Virus record (IMG/VR): IMGVR_UViG_3300030106_006546
Span: 1-50,358 of that record
DNA from: a virus
Length of the DNA: 50,358 bases
Strand: one strand, 5' to 3'
In this document: piece after piece, positions 1,377 through 47,580 of the stretch
Numbering within the stretch: the first letter of the stretch is position 1
Layout of the letters: the number at the start of each line of letters is the position of its first letter
Translations under genes and position numbers: made by a program
The notes under the pieces: model-generated
Seen by the model: the letters and a program-made list of their open reading frames with translations, nothing else
Told to the model about the DNA's origin: nothing
Database searches by the model: none

Positions 1377-1776
1377 GACCTGCCATACCCAAGCGCACCT
1401 AATCACGCCTCAATGCAACTCGCGACAACCAACCCCACCACACCAGCCCTGCCGAGCCTTCCCCAAACCCATCTTGCCACACCTAACCGGGCCGCAAGGC
1501 ACCCGACAACGCCATGCAACACCTCGCCTGACCTGCCCTGCCTTGCCGTACCGTGACGGACCCCACCGTGCCGATTGCAACCCCGACCCGCCTGACCAGA
1601 CCTGCCCTGCCATAGCCAACCTCGCGCAACCACACGGAGACACGTCGTACCATACCTGCCTTACCGAATCCAAATCGACCTTGCCCTACCACAACAAAAC
1701 GGATCGTGAAGCACCCAACCCAAACATCCCAAAACTCACCTGACCTGCCAAGCCAAGCCTAACCCAACCTAACCGC
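1377..1776 (-). repeat. Non-coding G-rich pentanucleotide-periodic array (about 80 degenerate 5-nt units)
   Basis: Read on the minus strand, about 400 nt consist of back-to-back 5-base units of the form GGYNN (GGTTA, GGTTG, GGCTT, GGCAG and so on), starting in the stop codon of the 166-aa gene. On the plus strand in consecutive 5-base blocks, position 3 is C in 11 of 12 blocks at 1441-1500, position 2 is C in 12 of 12 at 1501-1560, and position 5 is C in 11 of 12 at 1681-1740. From 1746 the CC pair is at positions 3-4 in 6 of 6. The phase drifts slowly, so occasional units are 4 nt. Two or three bases per unit are variable. It lies within an apparent minus operon and carries no credible gene. 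Confidence 0.8.
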
Positions 1777-2269
1777 CTTTGAGGTGCGTTTTGATTGGGT
1801 CAAGCACACCAGCCAACTCCGTCAGTTGGTCATACTTGTTTACAAATTGCTCAAGCTCTCGTTGTGCGTTTGCCAAAATTTGAGCCCTGAACTCAGGGTC
1901 TTTCATAGCCTCCACCGTTGAGACGTAAGAGCGCACGGTTTTTCCGAGATCGTTAGTGAGTGAAACACTCGTAAATACTCTTAATTTGGTAGGCGTGAAC
2001 GATTCAGGCACGTCAGCACTGGTCACATAAACCAAAGATCGTTTGATCTGTTTCTCAGTTGCCACCCGTTGTTTCTGTGCGGCGATCGAATCATCCCATT
2101 CAAAATCGTCGTGAAGAACAGAGTCGGGGTCGCGAGCGTGTTCGACCAGTTGTCCTGTGGGCGCGACACCACCCCATTGCTCATCGACAGCTCGTATTTC
2201 TTGTAACGCGAGATTGGGGTCTGCCTTGAAGACAGACCCCTTGGCCCACGCTACCGTGGTCACACTCAT
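1769..2269 (-). CDS. Conserved phage protein with FEWDD motif, partner of the Cas7-like gene (166 aa)
   Basis: Contains VEHARDPDSVLHDDFEWDD at about residues 42-60, followed by a basic RVATEKQIKRSL stretch. I recall this DFEWDD-type arrangement from phage proteins that sit beside the family encoded by the upstream gene, but the function is unknown to me. The C-terminal half is helical (EAMKDPEF... ELEQFVNKY). The start ATG overlaps the stop of the Cas7-like gene (2266-2269). The stop codon lies inside the first unit of the pentanucleotide array, so gene and array are physically fused. A role in binding or processing the array transcript is inference. Confidence 0.75.
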   Translation of the reverse strand: MSVTTVAWAKGSVFKADPNLALQEIRAVDEQWGGVAPTGQLVEHARDPDSVLHDDFEWDDSIAAQKQRVATEKQIKRSLVYVTSADVPESFTPTKLRVFTSVSLTNDLGKTVRSYVSTVEAMKDPEFRAQILANAQRELEQFVNKYDQLTELAGVLDPIKTHLKGG

Positions 2270-2877
2270 GCCGCTTCCTCGAGAATGGCAAATTCACGAT
2301 CGAGTCGGAAGCGACCATACTCACCGCCTTTTTCGGGACGCCACTCACCTAGCCCGATGCCAAACCCGGCACGCTCAATCAAATTGAGAATGGCCGATTG
2401 CGTGAGTGCCTTTGAGTCATATTCGAACTTCAGCGTCATCGCCCACTGCATAAACTCAGGCCGATAGCGCAGGTCAGTCGATCCCGCACCAACCCTCACA
2501 ATGTCCTCGCGCATCTTAGGGTCATCGGTTTCCAGCGCGACAAGGTTTAGCTCAAAATCGTCAGGCCGAATGAACAACGATTTTTTGAGCAAGGTCTTTT
2601 CCAGCCCAATGTCTTTGTGAGCCGCACCGACTAAACAAGCTTTGATACCACCTGCTGGGAACCCGTAGCGCCCGTCACTCAACTTGTAACTGGCGTTACG
2701 GAACTCTTGTGCGGGGTCGCGCACGTCGCGATTCTTAACGCGAATCCCTGCGTGCTTATCCCTCAGCATTTGAAGCGCTTTCTCATCCCACTTGTGCTGA
2801 ATGAAAGGACTGGTGCCCTCGATCCGAACCGTCATCAAAGTTTTTTGAATTGGTTCAAGTGCTATTACATTACCCAT
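2266..2877 (-). CDS. Cas7/RAMP-like phage protein (203 aa)
   Basis: Family features visible by eye: N-terminal strand then GTSPFIQHKWDEKA (residues about 19-32), a central YGFPAGGIKACLVGAAH block (about 72-88), and a C-terminal glycine-rich GIGLGEWRPEKGGEYGRF block (about 174-191). A Gly-rich loop near the C-terminus is typical of RAMP (Cas7-like) RNA-binding folds, and I remember this phage family as Cas7-like; that is recollection plus inference, not a search. The ATG at 2877 has AAGGAG 7 nt upstream. It is the first gene of the minus operon with the FEWDD protein and the pentanucleotide array. No CRISPR repeats or other cas genes are nearby. Confidence 0.7.
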   Translation of the reverse strand: MGNVIALEPIQKTLMTVRIEGTSPFIQHKWDEKALQMLRDKHAGIRVKNRDVRDPAQEFRNASYKLSDGRYGFPAGGIKACLVGAAHKDIGLEKTLLKKSLFIRPDDFELNLVALETDDPKMREDIVRVGAGSTDLRYRPEFMQWAMTLKFEYDSKALTQSAILNLIERAGFGIGLGEWRPEKGGEYGRFRLDREFAILEEAA

Positions 2878-3241: not shown

Positions 3242-3470
3242 AGCAGCATTGAAAAAGCGGTTTTACAATCGTGTGCGTCGCACTTGTCTCAAGCACAACA
3301 TCGATATTGTGTACGATGGTGTGCCAAAGGCGGTATATGGCGTGGAGCTGGTGAAGGATGGTGTCGTGATGTTTGCCGATCGCACAAACGACAACATGCC
3401 GCTCGACATCAACTGGCAACGACTGCATGAAGAGATGACCGACTACGGTTACAAAGGTGGTGTGAAATGA
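3234..3470 (+). CDS. Small hypothetical protein (78 aa)
   Basis: Basic N-terminus (MDKAALKKRFYNRVRRTCLKH), then alternating strand-like segments. It overlaps both neighbours by a few bases, and a GAGGCATCAATT leader upstream gives a usable ribosome site. No domain recognised. The tight packing with the gene at 3467 suggests one early transcript. Confidence 0.65.
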   Translation: MDKAALKKRFYNRVRRTCLKHNIDIVYDGVPKAVYGVELVKDGVVMFADRTNDNMPLDINWQRLHEEMTDYGYKGGVK

Positions 3471-3877
3471 GCATTCCAGAAAAACCAGTTTGGCTATCCC
3501 AGAAATTTAAGGTCTCAAAAATGACGCGAGGCTGGCATCCGAGTCTTAGGGGGTGCTTGTTAATTCAGTGCGCCAACGAAGATCACAAGCTAGAGGTCTG
3601 GTACTCCCCCAACGGAGAAACAGCCAGCGATTATGGCTGGTTAGATGTGAGATCCGCAGTCAACCGAGAAAAACCAGTTTGGCTATCCAGCAAATTCAAG
3701 GTCTCAAATTTTACGCAAGGTTGGCAACCAGATCTTGGGGGGTGCTTGGTAAGTGAGTGCGCCAACGAGGATCACAAGCTACAAATCTGGTACTCCCCGA
3801 ACGGAGAAACAGGCAGCAGTTATGGCTGGTTAGAAATTTCTTCCGCAGTCAACGAGAAAGGCATCAAGGACGTGTGA
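3467..3877 (+). CDS. Tandemly duplicated small-domain protein (136 aa, two 63-aa repeats)
   Basis: Two consecutive copies of one module. Copy 1 starts at E5 (EKPVWLSQKFKVS), copy 2 at E68 (EKPVWLSSKFKVS). Each continues with GW-P-L-GC, CANEDHKL, WYSPNGET, YGWL and SAVN. By my count 45 of 63 positions match. The DNA periods are 3479-3667 and 3668-3856. The strand-rich pattern with conserved Trp, Cys and Gly suggests a small beta domain, perhaps a binding module. It lies directly before the serine recombinase, 1 nt apart. I do not recognise the family. Confidence 0.75.
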   Translation: MSIPEKPVWLSQKFKVSKMTRGWHPSLRGCLLIQCANEDHKLEVWYSPNGETASDYGWLDVRSAVNREKPVWLSSKFKVSNFTQGWQPDLGGCLVSECANEDHKLQIWYSPNGETGSSYGWLEISSAVNEKGIKDV

Positions 3878-3878
3878 A

Positions 3879-4667
3879 ATGAGTGGACCGTATAAGCAAA
3901 TCAACAACATCTACGGTTACATTCGCGTGTCCACGGATGAGCAGGTCAAGTCGGGCATTTCGCTCGAAACCCAGATGCAACAGATCAGCGAGTTTGTGCG
4001 CGAGAAGTATAACCGTAAGGTCACGCAGTTTTTTGCTGATGAAGGCATCAGTGGTACTCACGCGGTTTTAGATCGTCCCGCAAGCCGTGAAATGACCGAC
4101 GTCATTGATGAGCACGATGTCGTTATTTGCACTAGGCTTGATCGATTAAGCCGATCAAGTTCTGATTTATTATCGCTTATTCCGCAACTCCAAGAGATCG
4201 GAATCACTTTGTTTTTCTGCGAGCAGTTTGGTGAAATGCCGATCGTTTACCCCGATGCTGTCAAAACAAAGGGTTTAGATGCGAAGTTTGACATGAATCA
4301 CATGGCCAATCAGATCATGTTGATGGTACTGTCTGCCGTCGCCGAGATTGAACATGCGACGATTAAAGACCGTTTTTCAGCGGGTAAACTGGACTGGGCG
4401 TCACGCGGGTATGCGATCGGTGGATCACCACCCTACGGATTCCGCCATGTAGAGGTCAAGACGGGAAGCAAAACCCGCAAGCTTTTGGAAGAAGTGCCTG
4501 AAGAGCAAGCTGTCTTGAAAACCATCTACCGTCTGCACAAGCGTGGCTTGGGTCCACGCAAGATAGCAACGCAGGTCAATAGCTTGCACGACATCCCACC
4601 GCTGACACATTCGAAAGTTCAGCGCATTCTCAACCGCAAGTTTCAAGGTTTGCCTAAAGCCGCGTAG
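3879..4667 (+). CDS. Serine recombinase (resolvase/invertase family, 262 aa)
   Basis: The N-terminal resolvase domain has YGYIRVSTDEQ with the nucleophile at S18 and R16. The conserved ADEGISGT follows, then CTRLDRLSRSSSDLL around residues 83-97, which holds the Arg residues that act on the scissile phosphate. The long E-type helix and a helix-turn-helix-like C-terminal part (GYAIGGSPPYGFR, then HKRGLGPRKIATQVN) resemble the post-catalytic region of Hin/Tn3-like or short Recombinase-type enzymes. At 262 residues it is longer than simple invertases and far shorter than large serine integrases. It could resolve multimers, invert a segment or integrate the phage; no attachment site or invertible segment was identified. 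Confidence 0.9.
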   Translation: MSGPYKQINNIYGYIRVSTDEQVKSGISLETQMQQISEFVREKYNRKVTQFFADEGISGTHAVLDRPASREMTDVIDEHDVVICTRLDRLSRSSSDLLSLIPQLQEIGITLFFCEQFGEMPIVYPDAVKTKGLDAKFDMNHMANQIMLMVLSAVAEIEHATIKDRFSAGKLDWASRGYAIGGSPPYGFRHVEVKTGSKTRKLLEEVPEEQAVLKTIYRLHKRGLGPRKIATQVNSLHDIPPLTHSKVQRILNRKFQGLPKAA

Positions 4668-46836: not shown

Positions 46837-47580
46837 ATGTTTGCTCCAATGAATTCCAGACAGCAATTCCAACAGCCACCCATGCCGCAACAGATGCCGC
46901 AACAGATGCCGCAACAGATGCCGCAACCATTTGGTGGTTTCGGCGGGGGTTTTGGCGGGGGTTTTGGTGGATACGGTAGTCAACAACCCATGCAACAACC
47001 GTTTGGCGGTTTCCGTCCGCAGCCACAGCCTCCACAATTCGGCGGTTTTGGTGGTGGCATGATGCGCCCCATGCCGATGCAACCTCAGCCGATGCCATTT
47101 TTCGGCGGTGGAATGGGCGGTAGGATGATGGATCAGCAACGAATGGGTTCCGCATCTTCTCTTCAGCAAGCATTGCAAGGTACGCTCGGTCAAAGGTTAG
47201 GCTCTCCCTCACCGCAAGCCCCTCAACAGGCTCCGAACACCGCGAGCGAAAGTCAAGCACGACAAGCGTCAGTTGACGCACAAATGCAAGAAGCGCAAGG
47301 CGCAGAACCCGATAGGACTGCGACTATGGCTCGATCCACTGGCGCGCCACCTGGCGGCCCACTACCACCGCGCATGCCTATGCCCATGCCAGTGCGTGGT
47401 GGGCCCGTCATGCCAAGATTTCCGTTTCAACCGCGACGTCCGATGCCTATGCCTATGCGACAGCCTATGCGCCCAACCCTGCGTGGTTTGGGATCAATGG
47501 GTATGCCGATGATGCAATTTAATCGTGGCGGTTTTAATCCGTTTATGAGTCGGCGATTTATGCCTCGAGGATTCTTTTAG
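46837..47580 (+). CDS. Low-complexity Met/Pro/Gln/Gly-rich protein (247 aa)
   Basis: The first half is built of PQQMPQQM and GGFGGGFGGG-type repeats; the middle is Ser/Gln-rich. The last third is PMPMPMRQPMRPTLRG-like and basic. No globular domain can be seen, and such proteins are probably virion-internal or structural. The start at 46837 has a weak GGAAGG site. A long-loop inverted repeat follows it. Confidence 0.65.
   Translation: MFAPMNSRQQFQQPPMPQQMPQQMPQQMPQPFGGFGGGFGGGFGGYGSQQPMQQPFGGFRPQPQPPQFGGFGGGMMRPMPMQPQPMPFFGGGMGGRMMDQQRMGSASSLQQALQGTLGQRLGSPSPQAPQQAPNTASESQARQASVDAQMQEAQGAEPDRTATMARSTGAPPGGPLPPRMPMPMPVRGGPVMPRFPFQPRRPMPMPMRQPMRPTLRGLGSMGMPMMQFNRGGFNPFMSRRFMPRGFF

Follow-up and report, generated by a model that had tools for sequence, protein, structure and literature searches.

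A 2026 preprint (PMC13142463, doi 10.64898/2026.04.26.720920) reports VIPR (Viral Interference Programmable Repeat), a system found chiefly in phages and prophages and used by phages to switch off the genes of rival phages. It is composed of a small single-domain RAMP protein (Vipr) with an RRM core and a glycine-rich loop, an accessory protein (Vap) and guide RNAs (vrRNA). Each vrRNA guide comprises 9-16 YNNGG (GGY/NN) repeats, and the NN letters pair with double-stranded DNA with one base skipped per unit, generally the codon wobble position. For phage SUSP1, the RNA-protein complex, the skip rule and programmable repression were demonstrated, and guides were reprogrammed via NN changes alone (PMC13142463). 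The preprint distinguishes seven VIPR types, staggered arrays among them, with function tested in one type, and presents VIPR as possibly ancestral to CRISPR.

We analyzed a 50,358-nucleotide stretch of viral DNA (IMG/VR record IMGVR_UViG_3300030106_006546), hereafter named the window, which carries a large terminase and whose relatives are phages. Among its features, a 136-aa protein (3467-3877) is a tandem duplication of two 189-bp copies with 84% matches and has no Pfam match; it adjoins a resolvase-type recombinase gene (3879-4667, Pfam E 3e-27). A Met/Pro/Gln/Gly-rich protein is encoded at 46837-47580, over 12-bp tandem repeats located at 46882-46967.

The locus studied here, on the minus strand, is very probably a VIPR system made of Vipr, Vap and a gapped-code guide array, because the anatomy of the array equals the published vrRNA motif and is found together with a Cas7-fold protein and its partner. 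The vipr gene (2266-2877, minus strand) encodes a 203-aa protein of the Cas7/RAMP fold, the predicted guide-RNA-binding backbone subunit. The candidate vap (VIPR accessory protein) gene (1769-2269, minus strand) encodes a 166-aa protein of the FEWDD family. The two open reading frames share 4 nt (ATGA) and the array comes next on the same strand; an earlier note, made from the letters of this DNA, had already recognized the 4-nt overlap and the array beyond the two genes. The proteins match phrog_4652 (E 5e-35) and phrog_15946 (E 1.5e-17), respectively, both listed with unknown function in PHROGs, and neither has a significant match in Pfam.

The earlier note had proposed that the 203-aa protein is Cas7/RAMP-like and that both proteins be compared with Cas7 structures. 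An AlphaFold (AF2) model of the 203-aa protein, obtained with 104 sequences (pLDDT 91.2, pTM 0.85), bore out this fold: the best 50 Foldseek matches in the PDB were exclusively Cas7-type CRISPR subunits (top E 6.6e-7), belonging to type III, III-D, III-E or VII complexes, and VIA-align gave Z scores of up to 12.4, to Csm3 (9g9g_I), over about 155 residues. A fold unrelated to RRM/RAMP, which the note had named as the contrary outcome, did not occur. The C-terminal glycine-rich loop that it had pointed out is real, with G171, G175, E178, R180, P181, E182, K183, G185 and G188 invariant among 37 homologues. By analogy with the VIPR family, the vipr product would bind RNA. For the 166-aa partner, the structural comparison did not lead to Cas7: its AF2 model, of pLDDT 93, resembled no structure in the PDB, where E did not fall below 0.36 nor Z rise above 3.8. 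The FEWDD motif noticed in this protein is kept across the partner family.

The array (1381-1774, minus strand) is a G-rich, vrRNA-type guide array of 74 pentamers with the consensus GGYNN, arranged in six GGCA-separated blocks. Read from 1774 to 1381, it was parsed end to end with zero bases left over. Block 1 (1750-1774) has five units, with NN = TA TG TA TT TT, and extends over the partner gene's stop codon. It is followed on the same strand by four guide blocks, namely block 2 (1661-1745, 17 units), block 3 (1607-1656, 10 units), block 4 (1538-1602, 13 units) and block 5 (1449-1533, 17 units), and then by block 6 (1385-1444, 12 units). The four-mers closing the blocks are GGCA in five cases and the variant GGCT in one, after block 5. 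Compared with the published 9-16 repeats, two blocks are slightly longer and one is shorter. The scaffold is degenerate, an exact GGY being present in 45 of the 74 units. The array contains 38 GG-(5 nt)-GG pairs, versus 15.0 +/- 3.4 (maximum 26) in 2000 dinucleotide-preserving shuffles, and 7 is the 99th percentile for 420-base stretches over the whole window. Of 34 NN letters, blocks 2 and 5 have 21 in common; shuffles gave a mean of 8.2, and none of 20000 was as high. Over 176 loci, GGCA accounted for 698 of 844 four-mers and block lengths were centred on 9-11 units; the parser has a prior that favours GGCA, and an initial run with a neutral one led to the same picture in most of the seven loci displayed.

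To assess the association between array and protein, we used searches in both directions. A period-5 array was detected near the protein, on the same strand, in essentially all of 54 IMG/VR loci found by protein, and similar strips were present in nearly every relative with enough flanking sequence (among them marine phages, Mycobacterium phage Saal, Gordonia phage UmaThurman and Felixounaviruses). The reverse scan of IMG/VR was done with the DNA pattern (GGYNN)x8-GGY alone and no protein query. The protein family was found in 92 of the 120 stretches retrieved (median distance 107 bp), in 90 of them on the same strand and within 1.1 kb, whereas its background rate is 149 in 50,697 phage records. 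The position of the array relative to the genes varies (upstream, downstream or between); a nearly constant strand combined with a variable gene order points to an array acting as RNA. The earlier description of a stand-alone RAMP module does not hold: the array belongs to the system, accompanies the protein in almost all relatives and can by itself serve as a search key.

Several individual loci showed particular organizations. L074 and L125 are the sole pattern-found loci with the array and the protein gene on opposite strands. Two protein copies and three long arrays are present at L055:5586-7587, and at L021:5460-6856 the partner gene occurs twice in almost identical form, with an array in between. 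The product gp40 of Gordonia phage UmaThurman (L060:6628-6951), annotated as a "hypothetical protein", corresponds to a guide array, and false reading frames also cross arrays in L021, L029 and L045.

An array of this type could also be a scaffold RNA or binding strip with no guide function, the Cas7-like protein polymerizing on GGYNN to autoregulate its operon or to sequester a host factor, with the NN letters as free spacers. This explanation, which we consider improbable, would account for GGY being the consensus, for NN letters that seem random between blocks, and for an array co-oriented with the gene whether placed upstream, between or downstream. However, the NN letters carry information. 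Comparing blocks of degenerate marine arrays, we found an NN identity of at least 60% in 66 of 3160 pairs, versus 8 of 9480 after unit shuffling. Scaffold identity was below 0.72 in 22 of these 66 pairs, unrelated pairs averaging 0.60; in one case, L016 and L018, NN identity is 95% and scaffold identity 64%. Related blocks have thus kept their NN letters although the scaffold has drifted to background, which argues against free spacers, as does an NN substitution rate close to that of GGY in homologous blocks of degenerate arrays. Substitution rates derived from block pairs selected by NN were dropped as selection-biased and are superseded by the comparisons given here.

A codon-position signature in the NN letters also argues against a scaffold role. 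Among 804 blocks, placing NN at codon positions 1 and 2, on either strand, gave +453 nats, versus +162 and -1368 for the other phases and -248 in a letter-swap control; since this model was built knowing the published skip rule, its result counts as confirming the rule in other loci rather than discovering it independently. The FEWDD-type (P2-type) loci alone (498 blocks) gave +292, versus +61 and -739 nats. Phase 1+2 was not favoured in the five window blocks, which are too few for this model. The signal was weak in a plain codon-composition comparison and clear in the per-block, two-orientation version. Finally, the reprogramming of SUSP1 guides through NN alone, as reported in the preprint (PMC13142463), is difficult to reconcile with a scaffold lacking guide function.

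Before the published VIPR rule entered the analysis, gapped guides with periods 2-10 had been compared with 1.3 Mb of local phage sequence, giving a weak excess at period 3 (524 vs 453 +/- 16). In a stricter test this excess was about 2.6 sigma, with similar values at periods 4 and 6; under tolerant matching, 3.3 Mb of local sequence showed no excess. A contiguous guide formed by the concatenated NN letters was considered as well and rejected, with no excess of matches; it was also disfavoured by a natural dinucleotide bias inside units and none at unit junctions.

Even less credit can be given to a fast-diverging DNA element (recombination hot spot, origin or G-quadruplex strip) lying by chance beside a Cas7-like protein that binds ssDNA. 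GGN3 repeats are compatible on paper with two-layer G-quadruplexes, and gains and losses involve entire blocks. But in 90 of the 92 pattern-found loci the strand is fixed with respect to the gene while the order is not, which points to RNA, and G-quadruplexes need neither a strict GGCA register slip nor conserved NN letters. The earlier note had reported no other cas gene or CRISPR repeat, in agreement with the lack of any PADLOC match in eight proteins of the region and of any Rfam family in the window; a search for Rfam ribozymes in 12 relatives likewise gave none at gathering scores. A remnant or minimal type III CRISPR-Cas complex borrowed by the phage, the array being a degenerated CRISPR, is hardly conceivable: the nearest folds are indeed Csm3 and further type III/VII Cas7 subunits, but the array consists of pentamers and not of repeats and spacers, the PADLOC scan of the region revealed no Cas neighbours, and the same protein-array pair is found in unrelated phages.

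Among the roles suggested in the earlier note, silencing agrees with the match to VIPR, while recombination and ssDNA binding received no support. In a VIPR system, transcription of the window array, its targets and their repression would resemble those of the VIPR family. Vipr would coat the array transcript with one subunit per five-base unit, gripping the GGY letters and leaving both N letters of every unit accessible. Together, the NN letters of a single block (10-17 units) would pair with double-stranded DNA, one base being skipped after two, and the skipped base would usually be the codon wobble position within a gene. The bound complex could then block transcription of the target, likely a regulator of a rival phage, prophage or satellite. 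GGCA four-mers would break the five-base register and hence keep neighbouring guides apart, and the FEWDD partner would be the accessory protein (Vap).

Judging from its decoded letters, block 6 has an AlpA-type regulator as candidate target. Its one-base-skip reading, VGWV[DE]A[DE]VYAW[IM], is an AlpA-like motif, the residue of the peptide being picked by eye where the dinucleotide permits two. When ten decoded peptides were compared with Pfam, the sole match was that of block 6 to AlpA (Phage_AlpA), with a sub-threshold E of 0.23. Scans with block 6 in which one NN position was relaxed gave four sites, three of them being AlpA-like genes in the correct frame, and the best, an AlpA-type gene in L198, matched 23 of 24 NN letters; as the relaxed scan required most NN letters, these sites bring out the motif rather than a proven target. 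Exact IMG/VR scans using long segments from blocks 2, 5 and 6 detected no target with all NN letters. With up to three mismatches, block 6 had one match among 369 genomes, in the genome already found, and tblastn of the decoded peptides gave no matches in phage records. AlpA regulators switch prophages and satellites. This activity, together with lysogeny-switch regulators being reported as common VIPR targets in the preprint (PMC13142463), makes the AlpA candidate plausible. In another locus, the guide block at L049:6730-6780 decodes to PGLYYQMV, a peptide that helicase-like genes of two further array-bearing phages (L079 and L124) encode in frame; a search of this size would be expected to yield such matches by chance.

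We then compared the locus with SUSP1-type systems. E. coli phage SUSP1 (L188) carries a homologue of the 203-aa protein and the same kind of blocks. VIPR type II (SUSP1 and a Pseudomonas fulva prophage; PMC13142463) resembles the window locus in being phage-encoded, in having a small RAMP protein with an accessory gene next to it, and in an array of GGY/NN pentamers on the same strand. The partner belongs to the FEWDD family in the window and is helix-turn-helix-like in SUSP1. The window array is continuous and staggered, with GGCA as delimiter and a degenerate scaffold, whereas SUSP1 has separate guides with structured tails; no structured 3' tail as in SUSP1 is present between the window blocks, where the spacing is only 4 nt.

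The earlier note had asked how often the two genes co-occur. The FEWDD partner was found in 72 loci, compared with 147 for vipr, and the SUSP1-type partner in 33; at the sensitivity used, neither partner was detected in 43 of the 147 loci, in some of them because the contig ends. The two partner families are mutually exclusive, the SUSP1-type being carried by SUSP1, Felixounaviruses and LESphi2. Of 59 FEWDD-type loci, 57 had staggered arrays, versus 1 of 24 for the SUSP1 type (Fisher P 2e-20). However, both traits are clustered on the protein tree and independent pairs give no support for a direct link; therefore, we do not claim the partner as the cause of staggering.

Two other phages deserve a description. 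In Pseudomonas phage LESphi2 (L193), the protein (P21_9) and a SUSP1-type partner (P21_8) are accompanied by three separate blocks; each has GGGCT at its end or close to it, ahead of an apparent hairpin. In Salmonella phage FelixO1 (L192), both genes are missing from the gap between ORF87 and the DNA ligase gene, where one guide-like block is left. The two genes are present at this site in about half of the FelixO1 relatives, and FelixO1 represents the empty site of an accessory module.

The staggered VIPR types of the preprint (PMC13142463) probably share with the window array a register shift between successive blocks, this being the likely meaning of "staggered". It is possible, though rather doubtful, that the window represents a VIPR subtype with a continuous transcript, whose guides would be split by a one-base slip (GGCA), recognized or processed by the FEWDD partner and directed to AlpA-type regulators of rivals. 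With Cas7 (Csm3/Cmr4) of class 1 CRISPR-Cas, the window protein has in common the fold and the glycine-rich loop; the RNA unit is six bases in class 1 systems and five in the window, which has no CRISPR array. The kind of system is thus known from VIPR, and what is new here is an example with a staggered, GGCA-delimited array and a FEWDD partner. The locus and about 150 relatives provide statistics on the VIPR code in a different type, reached by a different route, and the less studied staggered type gains block boundaries, a GGCA delimiter and a linked accessory family.
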